Position numbers and translations under genes: made by a program. The notes beneath the pieces were generated by a model, which was not told the DNA's origin, did no database searches, and worked only from the letters and a program-made list of their open reading frames with translations. Below are positions 33,392 through 41,865 of a stretch of 64,000 nucleotides of DNA, one piece after another. Within the stretch, counting starts at the first letter, position 1. Each line of letters opens with the position of its first letter. The DNA lies in IMG/VR virus record IMGVR_UViG_3300042691_047309, positions 62,001-126,000 of that record; one strand, 5' to 3'. Source of the stretch: a virus.

Positions 33392-33570
33392 AAGATTTAT
33401 TTAAAAGAAAACCACGTAAGATAGAAGATGATTTTGCTCCGGTTGGAACAAAGGATTGTGAAATGAAATGTGAGAGAGGTGTTATTATGACCAAAGAAGG
33501 ACACGTAATTGTATGTCATGGTTGTAAAAGAATTATTATGGACAATCGTGATAAAAATGAACTGTGTTAA
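33388..33570 (+). CDS. Small zinc-finger-like protein
   Basis: A 60-aa protein with CEMKC and, 17 residues on, CHGC, a likely four-cysteine zinc site. Basic N-terminus (MKDLFKRKPRK). ATG overlaps the previous stop (ATGA) and its end overlaps the rhomboid start by 14 bp. Function unknown. Confidence 0.6.
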   Translation: MKDLFKRKPRKIEDDFAPVGTKDCEMKCERGVIMTKEGHVIVCHGCKRIIMDNRDKNELC

Positions 33571-34114
33571 AAAAATAATAATTATTAATTTAGCGGTTTT
33601 TGGTGTATGTCATATCTTCAATTTTTGGGGATTACATTTGGAAAATCTGTTTGCTCTTTATCCTGTTAATACAGGATATTTTAGTTTTTATCAGTTAGTA
33701 ACGCATCTTTTTATACATGCAAATCCTGAACATCTATTTTTTAATATGTTGTTTTTTTTAATTGCTGGCATTGAAGTTGAAGAATATTTTGGTAAGAAAT
33801 TTTTAAGTTTTTATTTACTATCTGGGATTTTTAGTTCTGGTTTATATTGCTTAGGATCTAATGGTGGTATTATTGGGGCATCTGGTGCTGTTTTTTCAGT
33901 TTTAACAGTTTTTACTATTCTTACTATTAGAAATGAAAATTTCAAACATTCAATTCATTTAAAAATAAAATCATTTTTTTATATTTTTTTTATCTTAATT
34001 GAACTTTATAATGCTGTTTCATTTCCAAATGATAATATTGGTCACTGGTCTCATATATTTGGTGTTATATTTGGTACAATTTTCTACATACATCATAAAA
34101 AAAGTCTCTCTTAA
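33557..34114 (+). CDS. Rhomboid intramembrane serine protease
   Basis: Start at 33557 gives 185 aa. Six hydrophobic segments are visible. HLFIHANPEHLFFNMLFFL carries the conserved HxxxxH/N region, the catalytic serine is in GIIGASGAVFSV (GxSG), and the catalytic histidine in GHWSHIFGVIFG. It should cut membrane proteins within the bilayer. It ends at HKKSLS with no C-terminal cytoplasmic tail. An in-frame start at 33509 is less likely. Confidence 0.9.
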   Translation: MNCVKKIIIINLAVFGVCHIFNFWGLHLENLFALYPVNTGYFSFYQLVTHLFIHANPEHLFFNMLFFLIAGIEVEEYFGKKFLSFYLLSGIFSSGLYCLGSNGGIIGASGAVFSVLTVFTILTIRNENFKHSIHLKIKSFFYIFFILIELYNAVSFPNDNIGHWSHIFGVIFGTIFYIHHKKSLS

Positions 34115-34128
34115 AAAAGAGAGACTTT
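34101..34128. terminator. Terminator after rhomboid gene
   Basis: AAAGTCTCTC and GAGAGACTTT pair around TTAAAAAA; A and T runs flank both sides. It forms the left border of the T9SS cassette. Confidence 0.85.
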
Positions 34129-34159
34129 AAAAAATACTATTAAGGGTGTTAAGTATTTT

Positions 34160-34261
34160 TTACCATGGTCTAACTAAACTGTAACCAATCATCGTAAAAG
34201 CTAAAGTGGTTATTATTATCAGACTGATTAATATTAAATCGATTTTTATATTTTTTTGCAT
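34160..34261 (-). CDS. 33-aa single-span membrane peptide
   Basis: ATG 34261 to TAA 34160 encodes MQKNIKIDLILISLIIITTL and 13 further residues ending SLVRPW. A charged start, one hydrophobic helix and a positive end look like a small membrane protein. It starts 3 bp after the stop of the subtilase gene on the same strand, so may share its transcript. No homologue recognised. Confidence 0.45.
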   Translation of the reverse strand: MQKNIKIDLILISLIIITTLAFTMIGYSLVRPW

Positions 34262-34263
34262 TT

Positions 34264-35826
34264 TTATTGAATTATTATTTTTATAGTTTTATTTTGATTT
34301 ATTAAGTAATACTGACCCGGAGTACTGATACTAACAATTATATCATTTGATCTAATTTCTGTAACTAAACTTCCGACACTATCAAATATTTTTGAATCTG
34401 ATGGTAAATTTGCTATATTAAAAATGCCATTGTTAGGATTCGGATATACACTAAATTCAGAGTCACTTAAAGTATTAAAATGATTACCGTTATTACCCTG
34501 TCCATTGCCATTATTAGAATTAGAATTATTATTGATTACTCCGTTTTGACTTCCTAATTGTGAATTGTCATACCCTGGATTAGAAGGATCGAATCCGTCG
34601 CTATTTCCGTGTCCATTATTATTGTCATTATCTATAACCAAAGTCATTTCATAAGCAATTCTTACTGCTTCTGCTGAGTTTAATCTACCAGAACCCAACT
34701 TTCCTAAATATTGTGGATTTATTGAATAAATATCCACAGCTGTTATTCTAAGAATAGAATCAATTTCTGAATTTGTAATATTTGGATTCACTGATAACAT
34801 AAGAGCAATTGTACCAGATACATAAGGAGCAGCAAAAGAGGTTCCGGATGAATATGAATACCAACCCGGTGCAGCACTTAGTGGAACATTGTAACCAGGT
34901 GCGCAAATATCCACAGTTGAATTATGTTGATGTGTTGATCCATTTTGAGAAATATGACTATCATTTTGACCAACACTAGTAACTGAAAAAACGTGGTTGT
35001 AAGCGGCTGGATAAACTAAGTTATCAGGTCCACCACAAGTTGAGCCATTGCCAGCAGATGCTACTATAAATGTTCCGTTATTCCATACTTCGTCTATTGC
35101 TAATTGAGCGTAATAGTTATATGTGCAACCAGAAGCCCAACTCAGATTTATTACTTTATAACCATTATAAGATGCTTTTAACATATCATTATAATTCATT
35201 CTAAAAAGACCAAGTGAAGAATTATATCCAATTGAACTTATTCCTGTTGAGTTATTAGTATTCCCAGCAGCTGTAATTGCAACAGCTGTTCCGTGTGTTT
35301 TTGTAGATGTATTTGTAACATCATAGTATTTTACTTTTCCTACTAATTCTTCGTGATTTTGATAGAAGTTTTGGTCTGAAATAGCTATTCTAACAGATGT
35401 ATCACCGGTAGTATAAGACCAGGCGCCTTCGGCATTTATTAAACTAAGTGCCCAGTTATTAGAGAAAGAAGATGTGTAATCGTTAGGAAGTTCTAAAGTC
35501 TCAAATTTAGGAGCGATTTCAACCTTAGAGACTACAGTCGATTTGTTTGTAAGATTTTGTAATAATTCTACTTCATTACAGTTACAATCTATTTGATAAA
35601 CATTTTGTAATTTTTGATTTTTAGAGTCAGGAAATACTTTTTGAACATTTGTAATTTGGTATGTTTCTAAAACAGAGTTTAATTCTTGATTTTGAGAATA
35701 CAATTTATCACCTCTCATTTGTGGTACATTTTGGGACTCATTAATTGTCATCCAAACTGAATTTTGAGCCATTAAGTTTACACTTACTATTAAGATTGAT
35801 GTGATAAGTAGAATTAATTTTTTCAT
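34264..35826 (-). CDS. Secreted subtilisin-like serine protease with T9SS sorting domain
   Basis: A 520-aa protein. Signal peptide MKKLILLITSILIVSVNLMA (cleaved before QNS), then an S8 catalytic domain with the triad in VRIAISDQNF (Asp), TKTHGTAVAIT (His) and SYSSGTSFAAPYVSG (Ser). An Asn/Gly-rich linker (residues about 400-440) leads to a C-terminal domain beginning SVYPNPNNGIFNIANL, the type A T9SS sorting signal, ending QNKTIKIIIQ. It would cross the outer membrane by the host T9SS and act at or outside the cell surface. Confidence 0.92.
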   Translation of the reverse strand: MKKLILLITSILIVSVNLMAQNSVWMTINESQNVPQMRGDKLYSQNQELNSVLETYQITNVQKVFPDSKNQKLQNVYQIDCNCNEVELLQNLTNKSTVVSKVEIAPKFETLELPNDYTSSFSNNWALSLINAEGAWSYTTGDTSVRIAISDQNFYQNHEELVGKVKYYDVTNTSTKTHGTAVAITAAGNTNNSTGISSIGYNSSLGLFRMNYNDMLKASYNGYKVINLSWASGCTYNYYAQLAIDEVWNNGTFIVASAGNGSTCGGPDNLVYPAAYNHVFSVTSVGQNDSHISQNGSTHQHNSTVDICAPGYNVPLSAAPGWYSYSSGTSFAAPYVSGTIALMLSVNPNITNSEIDSILRITAVDIYSINPQYLGKLGSGRLNSAEAVRIAYEMTLVIDNDNNNGHGNSDGFDPSNPGYDNSQLGSQNGVINNNSNSNNGNGQGNNGNHFNTLSDSEFSVYPNPNNGIFNIANLPSDSKIFDSVGSLVTEIRSNDIIVSISTPGQYYLINQNKTIKIIIQ

Positions 35827-36086
35827 AACATTTTTTGTTTTTTTGTTTTATAATTTATATAGTTAGATACTACTGAAAAAGACACTGATTTTGACAGTTC
35901 CGAATGTAATTTACACATTCACTTATAGTAAGACATACATATAGATACTTACTAATATAAGTAATACTACTTAGTTAAATTTTTTTGATCATTGGATATA
36001 CTAAAATGCTCAAATCATTAGGTTTTACTGAATCTTTGTATTAAATATAAATATATACTATAGGGATTAAAAATTATTTTTCAATT
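35827..36086. other. Divergent intergenic region with inverted half-sites
   Basis: Between the divergent subtilase and adhesin genes. TACTTA (35946-35951), TAAGTA (35958-35963) and TACTTA (35968-35973) form two back-to-back inverted repeats, and GAATGT...ACATTC (35912-35930) can form a hairpin. Likely regulatory. No TAnnTTTG promoter is obvious; ATATATA lies at about 36050. Confidence 0.5.
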
Positions 36087-38246
36087 ATGATAAAGTTTTA
36101 TTTATTTTTATTATCAACCATTTTATTGGTCACAAATTCGTTATCACAAATAAATGAGGGTTTTGAGAGTGGTCTACCCGCTAGCTATACAACTACGACA
36201 TCTTATACACTAAGTTCCGGAACTTGGACTGGTCAAGCAAGTGGTGTTATTGGAAACACAACTGCAACTTGGATTAAAAGTGGCACTAGATCCTGCCAGC
36301 TTAGGTCACAGGTTGGATCACAGATAACCACTCCGACTATTACTCAAACAGTTGGCACAGTAACGTTTTGGGCATCAAGAACATCAGGTAGTGGAAGTTC
36401 TTTACAAGTAAATTACTCTACAGATGGTGGGACTACTTGGGTAGCTGCTACCGGATCACCCTTTAGTCTAAACACAACAGTAAGTCAATACACAGCTACT
36501 GTAAATACGACGAGTGTGAATGTCAAATTACAGTTTTATAGAACAGCAGGAACCGTTAATATAGACGATGTTGTTATTAATAAAAATAATAATTCCGTAT
36601 GTTCAACAGTAACAACACTTTCTTTACCATCAACCGTTGGATCAACGACGACTACAGGAACACAGACAACTTGTGGAAAAGTAAATGATTTTCCGGCTGG
36701 TTCTTTTGGATCCTCACTTTACGGTGATGGTCAAGATGCTGTTTGGCAAATTGATGTTCCGGTTAGTGGAGGTAATTATAAATTCGATATAGGAGGTGCT
36801 GGAACTTATAAAATATTATCTTTACACTCTTCTTGTTCCCCAACAAGTGGAAACGCTTTAAATTGGATCACAACTTCATCAGGAACAACTGGTAATTTCT
36901 CACAAAATCTTACAACGGGAACATACTATCTATGGGTAGATACGTGGCCATCTCCTGATTGTGGTCAGTACTCCATAACCATTACAAGATTAGCAAATCC
37001 ACCAGCTCCAAGTTGTATTTCATCACCGACATCTCCAACTAACGGTCAAACAGATGTCAGTACAGCCCCAACGTTATCATGGCCAACCGCATCTAACGCT
37101 ACAAGTTATGATGTATATTTTGGGTCTACTTTACCGATCACACCAACGATTAACGTTACTACAACATCTTATACTCCAAGTTCATTATCAATCACTACAA
37201 CATATTATTGGAAAATAGTACCTAAAAATTCTTCGGGTGAGCCTACAGGGTGTTCAACATGGTCTTTTACTACTTTAACACCAATTACTAATGACGACCC
37301 TTCAGGATCAACAACTTTAATTGTTAATGATCCTTTAGGTTATAAAACTTTTACGAATGTTGGATCATCAAATACGACAACAGAATCTTCACCTACATGT
37401 GCATCATATAATGGTGAGGATGTTTGGTTTAAGGTAGTTGTACCGAATGGGATAACAACGCTTGATTTTGATACTCAAACAGGTGGTATAACTGATGGTG
37501 GTATGTCTATTTACAGAGGAACTATTGGTTCTTTAACTCAAATTGAATGTGATGATGATGATGCATTAGATGGTCTAATGTCTTGGATATATCGAGAAGA
37601 TTTTACTCCCGGTGAAACAATTTATATCAGATTTTGGGAATATGGTGGTGGTACAGGAACATTTAAGATTTATGTTAGTACTCCTCAAGCACTACCAGTT
37701 GAACTAATTAGTTTTAATGCAACTTGTTCCGATGAAGGTATATTAATTAACTGGAAAACCGCTTCTGAACATAATAGTTCCCACTTTACACTTGAGAAGT
37801 CAAGAGATGGCGAAGATTGGTCTCAAATTTATACCGAACAAGCAGCTGGTAATAGCAATCAAATTATTACTTATAGTTTCACAGATAAAAACACTATTAA
37901 CGGTATTAATTACTATAGATTGAACCAATATGATATAGATGGTGTTTATGAACAATACGGACCTATTTCTGCAAATTGTTTAGAAAAAACAAAAGGATAT
38001 TTTTCTACTTTTCCGAATCCAAGTTTTTCAACATTTAATATTACTGTCAATAATGAAAGTATTATCGGTGAATCTATTATAGAAATAGTAGATGATATTG
38101 GTAGAAAAATAACAAATAAAAATGTCACTGTAAGTCCTGGAATAAACCTTTTCAACTTAAATATAGATATCGAACCAGGTATTTATTACATAAACATTCA
38201 TAATGATTATTTTTCTACCGATGTAATAAAACAAATTATAAGGTAA
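36087..38246 (+). CDS. Secreted multi-domain surface protein with T9SS sorting domain
   Basis: A 719-aa protein. Signal peptide MIKFYLFLLSTILLVTNSLS, then a jelly-roll-like region (residues 22-170, INEGFESGLPASY), a region resembling pre-peptidase beta domains (residues about 190-300), a fibronectin-like repeat (SPTSPTNGQTDVSTAPTLSW), another beta domain (GEDVWFKVVVPNG) and the common Bacteroidota PVELISFNA stretch. The C-terminus has PNPSFSTFNITVNN, a type A T9SS signal, ending DVIKQIIR. Higher G+C than its neighbours. Probably host-derived surface adhesin. Confidence 0.9.
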   Translation: MIKFYLFLLSTILLVTNSLSQINEGFESGLPASYTTTTSYTLSSGTWTGQASGVIGNTTATWIKSGTRSCQLRSQVGSQITTPTITQTVGTVTFWASRTSGSGSSLQVNYSTDGGTTWVAATGSPFSLNTTVSQYTATVNTTSVNVKLQFYRTAGTVNIDDVVINKNNNSVCSTVTTLSLPSTVGSTTTTGTQTTCGKVNDFPAGSFGSSLYGDGQDAVWQIDVPVSGGNYKFDIGGAGTYKILSLHSSCSPTSGNALNWITTSSGTTGNFSQNLTTGTYYLWVDTWPSPDCGQYSITITRLANPPAPSCISSPTSPTNGQTDVSTAPTLSWPTASNATSYDVYFGSTLPITPTINVTTTSYTPSSLSITTTYYWKIVPKNSSGEPTGCSTWSFTTLTPITNDDPSGSTTLIVNDPLGYKTFTNVGSSNTTTESSPTCASYNGEDVWFKVVVPNGITTLDFDTQTGGITDGGMSIYRGTIGSLTQIECDDDDALDGLMSWIYREDFTPGETIYIRFWEYGGGTGTFKIYVSTPQALPVELISFNATCSDEGILINWKTASEHNSSHFTLEKSRDGEDWSQIYTEQAAGNSNQIITYSFTDKNTINGINYYRLNQYDIDGVYEQYGPISANCLEKTKGYFSTFPNPSFSTFNITVNNESIIGESIIEIVDDIGRKITNKNVTVSPGINLFNLNIDIEPGIYYINIHNDYFSTDVIKQIIR

Positions 38247-38250
38247 TTAA

Positions 38251-38284
38251 AAAAACGAGTTATTTAAATAACTCGTTTTTTTTG
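38251..38284. terminator. Terminator after the 36087 gene
   Basis: AAAAACGAGTTATTT and AAATAACTCGTTTTT form a long perfect stem followed by T residues. Confidence 0.9.
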
Positions 38285-38359
38285 CTCATTAGTCTGTATA
38301 TAATGCTCAATTTGTATTTTTTATAGCTAAACTTGATTGACTAAATTGATATATAGGGT

Positions 38360-40258
38360 ATGAGAATTATATTTAAACATAATTTATTATTTCTATTTTG
38401 TTTATTGACAAACTTTTTACTTGCACAACCAGCAAATGATAATTGTTCTGGTGCTCAAAATTTAGGAAATTTACCAACACCTGCATCTTGCCCAAGTGGT
38501 ATTGGAACATCAGTAAATGTCACAGGAACCACAGTTGGAGCAACACCTACAAATCCATATAACTACCTTTTAGGTTGTCAAACTGGTGGAAATCAACCAG
38601 CACCAGCTAATGACGTTTGGTATAGATTTGTCGCAACCGGAAATCAAGTAAATATAAATATAACAGCAGGATCTCCGGTATTAGCAAATCCAGCAATAAC
38701 ACTTTGGACAGGAACTTGCGGTAATCTAACCGGAGTTGGATGTGATAATAATGGAACAAATGCTGGTGCTAATTCTGCAATTTTTGAGCCTTTAACATCT
38801 GGTCAAACTTATTATATTCAAGTATCTGGCTCTACATCAACGGCTACTGGTAACTTTAACCTTTCTGTAAATTCACAAAATGATTGTTCAGATTGTCTTC
38901 AAGGTTCTTATATAACTGCTACTCCTGCTCCAACAAATGGAACTTATCCACCAAATACTCAAGTGACTTTTTGTTATACAATCACTTCTTTTAATCAGGT
39001 AAGTGCAAACTGGATACATGGAGTGATACCTTCTTTTGGTGCTGGTTGGAATCCAACAACTTTACAATCAGTGAGTGCTCCAAATGCTTCCGCGGGATAT
39101 GTTTGGACTTGGACTAATGGACCACTGGGTTTAGGTTGGTATGTTGATTATGATCCAGTAGGACCAACCGGTCCAGATGGAAATGTCACTAATAACTATG
39201 GAACTTCTAATATAAATGGAACGGGAACTTGGACTTTTTGTTGGAGAATTACAACTGATCCAAATTGCACCGGTGGAACTGACCTTTCGGTAGATGTCAA
39301 TACAACGTCTGATGGGGAGACCGGTAACTGGACTTCTGTTGCTTGTCAAGACGACCCAGTTTATCAATTTTCATCCACATTAATATGTTGCACAAATCCA
39401 ACTGTAACATTATCCAATCAAACTATTTGTCAGGGTCAAAGCGTGACTCTAACTCCTACGGTTAGTCCTGGTGGTGGAACTTACTCTTGGTCATCTGGTC
39501 AAATAACTTCTTCTATTACGGTTACACCTTCAACAACTACATCCTATACCGTTACATATGCGACCGGTTCTTGTTTTTCAACTGCGACTGCTACGGTAAC
39601 TGTTAATACACAAACTACACCAACATTTACACAATTAGGACCTTTCTGTTCAGGAACTTCATTTACCTTACCAACAACATCAAATAATGGAATCACCGGT
39701 TCTTGGTCACCTGCTATTAACAATACATCAACAACAACTTATACATTCACTCCAACTGCTGGTCAATGTGCTTCAACTGCAACAATGACAGTTACAATAA
39801 ATCCACAAACAGTTCCAACATTTACGCAAGTAGGACCTTTTTGTTCTGGAACTTCATTTACTTTACCAACAACATCAAATAATGGAATAACAGGAACTTG
39901 GTCTCCTGTAATCAATAATACCTCAACAACAACTTATACATTTACACCAACTGTCGGTCAATGTGCTCAATCAACTACGATTACAATAACAATAAGCCCT
40001 CAAGTTACTGCTACTGTCACCGGAACAAATCCAACTTGCGACAACGCCTGTGATGGAACAGCAACTACCACACCACTTACCGGAACTCCCCCTTACACTT
40101 ATGTATGGACTCCTTCTGGTGGTACACAAACCATCACAAATTTATGTGAAGGAACTTATAATGTAACTATCACTGACTCTTTTGGATGTCAAACAACAGG
40201 AAGTGTAACCCTAACAGACCCGGTTGCACCAGTGTTGGGTCCAATTAGTCATGACTAA
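38360..40258 (+). CDS. Secreted repeat-containing surface protein
   Basis: A 632-aa protein with signal peptide [20 protein letters not shown], a [13 protein letters not shown] domain of Bacteroidota surface proteins, and Ig/PKD-like repeats. Two repeats of 65 residues (starting [15 protein letters not shown] at about 422 and 487) are nearly identical. There is no type A sorting domain; it ends VLGPISHD. The next gene ends in the similar LSPIQHD. First gene of a three-gene set to 41447. Confidence 0.85.
39621..40010 (+). repeat. Two tandem 195-bp repeats
   Basis: The copies begin at 39621 and 39816 and are in frame, encoding two 65-residue modules. Differences are mostly synonymous or conservative, so the duplication is not fresh or is under selection. 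Confidence 0.85.
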
Positions 40259-40275
40259 AAATAAAAAAAAGAAAA

Positions 40276-40863
40276 ATGAAAAAACTATTAACTTCTCTAG
40301 TTGTTTTGTTTGTGAGTGTTGTTTCCTACTCTCAAACTTTTACAACTACTCAACCAGACACGGTGTGTTTTGGTTCGACAACTCCTTCAACTTATCAAGT
40401 TGCTAACATTGGTTCAGGAACTTATACTTGGACCATTCCTGCTTGCGCATCTATTGTATCTGGGCAAGGAACAAATCAAATTCAAGTCAATTGGTCTAAC
40501 TGTCCAGCTGGTTTAATTCCTAATGCTGTTTCTGTTACATATGCATCTCCAGCTCCAGCTAACTGTCCCGCTCTTCCAGTTGATATGGATGTTTTAATTT
40601 ATCAAGTTGTACCGACAATCACAGCTTTAGGTCCATTTTGTGAATCTGATCCTTGTGTGACTTTAGTTGGAACTCCAGCGGGTGGAACATGGACTGGATT
40701 AGGTGTTTCAGGAAACCAATTCTGTCCTGATAACGTAGCTAATGGAACTAACGCTACATCAACAGTTACTTATACACTTACAAATGGTGGATGTACATTT
40801 ACTACATCGGTAGTTGTTCCGGTTTATGGAACTCCTACACTTTCACCTATACAACACGATTAA
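40276..40863 (+). CDS. Secreted small surface protein
   Basis: A 195-aa protein with signal peptide MKKLLTSLVVLFVSVVSYS, a PKD-like region (TYTWTIPACASIVSGQGTN) and a module starting PTITALGPFCESDPC that is related to the 65-residue repeats of the preceding protein. Ends TLSPIQHD. It begins 17 bp after the previous gene and belongs to the same transcript. Confidence 0.85.
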   Translation: MKKLLTSLVVLFVSVVSYSQTFTTTQPDTVCFGSTTPSTYQVANIGSGTYTWTIPACASIVSGQGTNQIQVNWSNCPAGLIPNAVSVTYASPAPANCPALPVDMDVLIYQVVPTITALGPFCESDPCVTLVGTPAGGTWTGLGVSGNQFCPDNVANGTNATSTVTYTLTNGGCTFTTSVVVPVYGTPTLSPIQHD

Positions 40864-40880
40864 AAATAATATAAAGTAAA

Positions 40881-41447
40881 ATGTTGAGATTATTAAGTTT
40901 CATATTTATAATGATGTGTTTTGGTTTGTTTTCACAACAAACTTTACAAATATGCCCTGGTGAAAGCGAGACAGTTACTTATTGGACTGAAACTACAACA
41001 CCGGGAGAGATAGTGTGGTCTGTAAATGGAACATCTTATTATAGTGATCAACTTGTTATGAACTGGACACAACCTGGAACTTATAATATATCAGTCACTC
41101 AAACAAATGGAATTTGTGAAGATAGTAAATACTTTACAGTTATTATAAGTTCTTGTGATGATTTAATTTATTATGTTCCTAATTCATTCACACCGGATGA
41201 TGATAATTTTAACAACATATTTCAACCTGTATTCACAGAAGGATTTGATCCATTTGATTTTCATTTAACTATATTTGATAGATGGGGTGAGATTATATTT
41301 GAGTCATATGATGCCTCAAAAGGATGGAATGGATATTATGGAAACAAAAAGTGTCAAGATGGGGTATATACCTGGAAAATCGAATTTGGAAGACCTGGTA
41401 TAGATGATAGAGAAGTTATAGTAGGACACGTAGTTTTAATAAGATAA
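40881..41447 (+). CDS. Secreted protein with type B T9SS (gliding-motility-associated) C-terminal domain
   Basis: A 188-aa protein. Signal peptide MLRLLSFIFIMMCFGLFS, a PKD-like middle (GEIVWSVNGTSYYSDQLV), and a C-terminal type B domain: YYVPNSFTPDDDNFNNIF, FHLTIFDRWGEIIFES and GWNGYYGNKKCQDGVYTWKI, ending VGHVVLIR. In Bacteroidota, such domains send proteins through the T9SS. It may anchor or co-assemble with the two preceding proteins, which lack their own sorting domain. Confidence 0.9.
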   Translation: MLRLLSFIFIMMCFGLFSQQTLQICPGESETVTYWTETTTPGEIVWSVNGTSYYSDQLVMNWTQPGTYNISVTQTNGICEDSKYFTVIISSCDDLIYYVPNSFTPDDDNFNNIFQPVFTEGFDPFDFHLTIFDRWGEIIFESYDASKGWNGYYGNKKCQDGVYTWKIEFGRPGIDDREVIVGHVVLIR

Positions 41448-41448
41448 A

Positions 41449-41477
41449 AAAATCCATCAGAAATGATGGATTTTTTG
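41449..41477. terminator. Terminator after the T9SS set
   Basis: AAATCCATCA and TGATGGATTT pair around GAAA and are followed by a T run. Right border of the cassette. Confidence 0.85.
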
Positions 41478-41499: not shown

Positions 41500-41865
41500 A
41501 TGGATAAGTCGAGAATTAATGATATGGTTGATAGAAAAATAATACAGTCTTTTCAAGAAGGATTTTCTATTGGTTCTATTCAATCAGATCTTAAAGTCAG
41601 AATAAGAAATTTCACTAACACTATTGGAAAGGATAGTAGTGTGAATTATATGCAGTTATATGATACTAAATTTGAAGATATTCCAAACATTCGTCATAGA
41701 TATGGTATAACCTACATAAAACAGTGTCAAAAAAGATTACAGGATTTAGATTGGATTATTGAGAAGAAATCAAAATTTAGTAATATGACTTATTCTAAGG
41801 TATTTAAATTAATTCAGTTTAGAGAAAAACTCGAATCTACTGCAAAAATTTATCCATTCAAATAG
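41500..41865 (+). CDS. Hypothetical protein
   Basis: A 121-aa basic protein starting MDKSRINDMVDRKIIQSF, mainly helical. No recognised family. Own host-type promoter; monocistronic because another promoter lies before the next gene. Confidence 0.6.
   Translation: MDKSRINDMVDRKIIQSFQEGFSIGSIQSDLKVRIRNFTNTIGKDSSVNYMQLYDTKFEDIPNIRHRYGITYIKQCQKRLQDLDWIIEKKSKFSNMTYSKVFKLIQFREKLESTAKIYPFK

Follow-up and report, generated by a model that had tools for sequence, protein, structure and literature searches.

Phage-encoded cargo of the type IX secretion system (T9SS) is, as a kind, already known from two reports. In Cryophage, type A tails are borne by an endoglucanase and by GH39 and PA14 proteins, and superinfection exclusion was proposed (Bellas et al. 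2020, PMC7468147), and in the crAss-BACON phages T9SS tails are carried by ORFs near head genes (PMC6949934). Cargo with type B tails is held by PorP/SprF proteins (PMC9143113); where tested, PorP/SprF is required for secretion of such cargo, and orphan type B cargo is also known (PMC12618676).

Here, a window of 64,000 nucleotides, corresponding to bases 62001-126000 of an IMG/VR virus record of 175,894 bases, was analyzed around five genes for putative T9SS-related proteins. With moderate confidence, we favor the view that a huge phage makes its own T9SS cargo and that three of these genes, referred to as A, B, and C, specify a three-part surface fiber that would be exported by the host.

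Phage origin of the window

The window encodes the large and medium subunits of a T4-type topoisomerase II, indicating phage DNA, and a baseplate wedge protein is encoded on the same contig outside the window. The records nearest to the topoisomerase are LR745206 (79%; an uncultured phage of 634,780 bases) and LR756502 (76%; 642,428 bases). About 40 window genes are collinear with LR745206, the core genes and their order being common to both. Because of this tie, the IMG/VR record is probably a piece of a much larger genome. Neither of the markers whose phylogeny would decide membership in the Mahaphage clade, terminase and major capsid, turned up in the fragment, and a possible placement there draws on topoisomerase identity and synteny. 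Judging by size, the two relatives are probably the curated 634- and 642-kb genomes of Al-Shayeb et al. 2020, in which Bacteroidetes hosts were predicted for the five largest phages (PMC7162821).

Other genes of the contig deserve mention. An operon outside the window (contig 140217-144565, minus strand; see also L009:16217-19006 and L010:3003-4565) pairs a 520-aa protein, whose type A T9SS tail scores 44 bits, with a TonB-dependent receptor of 929 aa (94 bits). LR745206 and LR756502 also each contain a TonB-dependent receptor-like barrel, dissimilar by BLAST and followed on the 3' side by a gene that resembles a PnuC transporter on inspection. About a dozen otherwise unrelated proteins (contig ORFs 32068, 41808, 57699, 58121, 62242, 154016, and others) share an N-terminal motif like MKxxKxFxxFxES, perhaps a capsid-targeting peptide.

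Organization of the locus

The original prediction described one cassette of five genes between two terminators. All five ORFs are present, as are terminator-like hairpins at both ends (Table 1), but the genes do not form one cassette; instead, a divergent subtilase/adhesin pair lies beside a separate A-B-C operon, which is set apart from the adhesin by a further hairpin and preceded by a promoter-like motif. This motif, ATATATAG, has 14 copies in the contig, 13 of them no more than 80 bp 5' of an ORF, a distribution that suggests a phage promoter element. A search for sigma-70 promoters was uninformative (44 found, 44 expected). Taken over the whole contig, and with the copy at 38349-38356 included, the motif reads TTAATATATAG and stands at -10 to -12 relative to the start codon, nearly confined to upstream regions; it is also found at -11/-12 in several relatives, and its distance to the start is so short that leaders would be very short.

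Table 1. Coordinates of the locus and its borders, numbered from the first base of the window
Feature	Position	Strand	Basis or remark
Rhomboid protease gene, 5' slot border	33509..34114	+	PF01694, 87 bits; listed start TTG, internal ATG likelier
Terminator-like hairpin, left border	34101..34128	n/a	12 pairs
Secreted subtilase, 520 aa	34264..35826	-	Peptidase_S8, 101 bits; S8 domain ~34711-35394; weak type A T9SS tail ~34267-34449
Adhesin, 719 aa	36087..38246	+	PF18962; putative type A T9SS tail ~38010-38216
Further hairpin and T run, 3' of adhesin	38250..38285	n/a	By inspection; unlisted by scan
Promoter-like motif ATATATAG, -11 of gene A	38349..38356	+	
Gene A, 632 aa	38360..40258	+	Domain matches
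Codons of A's conserved terminal peptide PISHD	40241..40255	+	
Gene B, 195 aa	40276..40863	+	PF19408
Codons of B's conserved terminal peptide PIQHD	40846..40860	+	PIQH unchanged across 18 aligned B sequences
Gene C, 188 aa	40881..41447	+	CHU_C, TIGR04131; T9SS type B tail ~41175-41444
Bidirectional terminator-like hairpin, right border	41447..41476	n/a	13 pairs
Small phage gene, 3' slot border	41500..41865	+	Homologues in relatives

The subtilase belongs to family S8, and its Asp-His-Ser catalytic residues are kept in relatives. Type A tails had been predicted on both members of the divergent pair. That of the adhesin lies near the PF18962 cut-off of 27 (27.6 bits when the genome was searched and 22 bits for the protein by itself), and that of the subtilase falls below both cut-offs (TIGR04183, 18.7 bits against 23; PF18962, 25.2 against 27), with most of the tail lost in the relatives L014, L015, and L118. 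Relatives of the adhesin were found in L017, L117, and L118. At L015:7992-13667, a subtilase/adhesin pair directly follows the gene for a gp23-type major capsid protein (PF07068, 246 bits).

A recurrent slot in related phages

The locus occupies a slot between the rhomboid gene and gene 41500. Homologues of the former mark the same border in L022, L023, L024, L026, L032, and L033, and in L026, L027, L032, and L033 a homologue of the latter directly follows a type B T9SS gene. Between the two, a type B T9SS gene encoding 734 aa is present in L026, one of 126 aa in LR745206, and one of 1670 aa in LR756502; in L027, a 125-aa type B T9SS gene directly precedes the gene 41500 homologue, and the rhomboid gene is absent. 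The slot holds no T9SS gene in L022, L023, L024, L025, or L030. Since it is empty in several close relatives, the cassette genes are dispensable for this group of phages. The contig that includes L016, L017, and L022 carries the full cassette in the same gene order elsewhere, beside homologues of genes 1421 and 41901. A gene resembling HAD/NIF-type phosphatases on inspection adjoins the slot's type B T9SS gene at L032:25272-25832, L033:23148-23714, and L027:14508-15080.

All of these data come from metagenome assemblies, so that an assembly chimera or bacterial contamination has to be weighed. Continuity across both borders, which the original prediction had singled out for checking, is borne out by independent contigs and by LR745206 and LR756502, in which this slot contains type B T9SS genes. 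The third-position G+C content (GC3) of the cassette also equals that of the phage, and a chimeric or contaminant origin can be regarded as exceedingly improbable; on synteny and GC3, the assembly chimera was rejected.

The overall G+C content is indeed raised, as predicted (z up to +3.3), together with a richness in Thr, Ser, and Gly. Because GC3 is level with the phage average or a little under it (z -0.8 to -0.1), the rise is explained by the amino-acid composition of Thr/Ser/Gly-rich proteins. A recently acquired foreign island was rejected on the same grounds.

The A-B-C module

Gene A encodes a signal peptide, a galactose-binding-like domain, a tip domain, and PKD/SprB-type repeats, and ends in PISHD. 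B consists of a signal peptide and two Ig/PKD-like domains and terminates in PIQHD; C combines a signal peptide and a small Ig-like domain with a type B tail. This tail exceeds the cut-offs of both models, with 48-51 bits for CHU_C/PF13585 (cut-off 27) and 45.3 bits for TIGR04131 (cut-off 35). In a profile search that included TIGR04131 and PF13585, A and B gave no match to T9SS tail models. An AF2 model of B (pLDDT 86) displays two confident beta domains and an extended C-terminal tail. The model of A's tip domain is weak (pLDDT 68); this domain has no solved relative by sequence and no fold match at E <= 0.001. Compared with L017, dN/dS is 0.22 for the subtilase, about 0.12 for B, and 0.08 for C, with dS near saturation in the comparison of C; the subtilase, B, and C are under purifying selection.

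A search of viral contigs with B yielded 27 contigs with 41-84% identity. With the window counted in and one truncated contig and repeats set aside, a whole B accompanies C in 27 contigs, and A lies directly 5' in 26 of these; the exception is L105, in which A is placed after C. The B and C genes touch or overlap in most contigs. Searches with B, C, or the tip domain gave no match in cultured phages; the matches were confined to uncultured huge phages, apart from a faecal fragment that C matched weakly.

A varies from 189 to 632 aa among the contigs. Its N-terminal part is unrelated between the groups window/L096, L017/L092, and L018/L019, and its end is kept. The C-termini of A and B read I-x-H-[D/N], with F/Y only rarely, in the most distant members. 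In at least four relatives, A, B, and C are fused as one protein from which the inner signal peptides are absent, as read from joined BLAST pieces: L021, L026, LR745206 (26-28 kb), and G005 (5-6 kb). These fused polypeptides indicate an association of A, B, and C in that order. They also suggest that the three proteins act as one chain, with the terminal peptides as candidate joints. The prediction of a three-gene set ending in a type B domain stands as regards C, whose tail is clear; A and B are without a T9SS tail and form one polypeptide with C in some relatives.

Signal peptides on A and B without any match to tail models would also fit a simpler arrangement, in which C alone is displayed at the surface and A and B, each exported separately by Sec, either function in the periplasm or exit by a different path. 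Periplasmic retention of A and B could indeed occur. Against this arrangement stand the fused proteins of relatives, the order kept in 26 of 27 contigs, the adhesin-type domains that make up A, and the conserved free C-terminal peptide on both A and B, and we think it unlikely. The three-part fiber is preferred to it. A more specific proposal, advanced tentatively, is that the terminal I-x-H-[D/N] constitutes a new docking and co-export tag with which tail-less proteins might cross the outer membrane together with a tailed partner, which would give phages a modular, tip-swappable fiber of three chains exported separately.

Searches of bacterial genomes

A scan of 84,980 genomes with inner and N-terminal peptides of B as patterns, the terminal tail excluded, returned only 22 partial matches, and those inspected lie inside large adhesins. 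In ten of the genomes with such matches, every B-like match falls in an open frame of at least 437 aa. At E <= 1e-20, none of 396 Bacteroidota genomes contained a stand-alone B; as a positive control, ten virus records were tested and all gave E <= 2e-42 for B. A host copy of A-B-C was rejected, stand-alone B not being found in the bacterial genomes scanned. The idea that the terminal peptide is a motif widespread in bacteria was likewise rejected. In 61 Bacteroidota genomes, a search for PI-x-H-[D/N] followed by a stop, limited to TAA stops and D/N ends, gave 27 matches. The reversed control gave at least as many, and not one of the matches ended an ORF.

The domains concerned are common in large Bacteroidota adhesins, and some close relatives have an empty slot, as would be expected if the phage had acquired common host cargo genes by chance and gained no lasting benefit from them. 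Such an origin appears quite improbable in view of the purifying selection on the subtilase, B, and C, a codon usage equal to that of the phage, and the contrast between the 396 Bacteroidota genomes and the ten virus records.

Export signals and the host secretion system

The signal peptides predicted on all five cassette proteins were confirmed by pattern and a hydrophobicity check, and in each case (5/5) Gln directly follows the cleavage motif. The same holds for all 24 distinct proteins examined for each of A, B, and C. Gln as the first residue after signal peptide cleavage is the Q-rule of Bacteroidetes (PMC5837995).

Could these proteins be parts of the virion, such as tail fibers or capsid decoration? 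Ig-like domains are common on virions, and the subtilase/adhesin pair of L015 adjoins a capsid gene. All five signal peptides, however, would direct export from the cytoplasm, the site of T4-type virion assembly, and C bears a T9SS tail; a virion role is therefore very unlikely. Export to the surface of the infected cell is the reading adopted here.

No PorP/SprF gene was detected in 18 virus records, compared with 5-22 copies in each of four Bacteroidota genomes. Phages without PorP/SprF would use that of the host, and a host shuttle could serve phage type B cargo that comes without its own.

Proposed mechanism and implications

The tails and signal peptides argue for the original view that these phage genes are built for use of the host T9SS and would thereby change the cell surface; on this sequence evidence, the virus probably decorates the infected cell through the host secretion system. 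The phage would infect a T9SS-bearing Bacteroidota host, whose machinery would place the phage's own cargo on the surface of the infected cell. All five proteins would pass through the host Sec system, and the tailed ones would then move outward via the host T9SS, the subtilase and the 719-aa adhesin by means of their putative type A tails. C may serve as the base of the fiber, exported through its type B tail and held at the outer membrane by a PorP/SprF-like protein of the host. B, with its two Ig-like domains, would be the connector and A an exchangeable adhesive tip, with A docking on B and B on C through their C-terminal I-x-H-[D/N] peptides. The tail-less A and B would either travel with C or be captured by it.

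The likeliest use of such a structure would be altered binding by the infected cell, through receptors masked or clipped against competing phages or through adhesion of the cell to surfaces or to other cells. Superinfection exclusion and adhesion or aggregation may be considered the leading options, and in our judgement they are roughly equal. Under the proposed mechanism, a whole group of giant phages, rather than one odd genome, would use the host T9SS during infection. These phages would also maintain their own adhesin module, which did not turn up in bacterial genomes. Should A and B be carried along by C, tail-less partners can pass through the T9SS, and the prediction of its cargo would have to change. 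The exchanged tip of A would offer a direct handle on the purpose of the altered surface.

Comparison with known systems

As far as the open-access literature was searched, two aspects appear to be new: a slot that recurs among huge phages and is occupied by type B cargo, and a split A-B-C module with a terminal peptide. As in the phages described here, the T9SS-tailed genes of Cryophage are thought to use the host system and vary between variants, but they are not known to include a type B tail, a three-gene set, or a terminal I-x-H peptide (PMC7468147). The crAss-BACON phages also have T9SS tails on phage ORFs, but they are different phages with BACON domains and are not known to carry an A-B-C set (PMC6949934).

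Among bacterial systems, SprB/SprF of Flavobacterium johnsoniae resembles A-B-C in providing a secreted adhesin with SprB/PKD-type repeats and a type B tail. SprB, however, is one very large chain with a host PorP/SprF partner, in contrast to three short chains from a phage without PorP/SprF. PKD/SprB-type giant adhesins of Bacteroidota also contain B-like domains, in the ten genomes always within the long frames noted above and never as a stand-alone B. The nearest solved relative of the C tail is the C-terminus of GhpA, the grappling-hook protein of Aureispira (E 1e-10), and the best fold match of B is the GhpA base, at a low TM-score. GhpA is a single bacterial chain of 5898 aa, whereas A-B-C is split, small, and phage-encoded.
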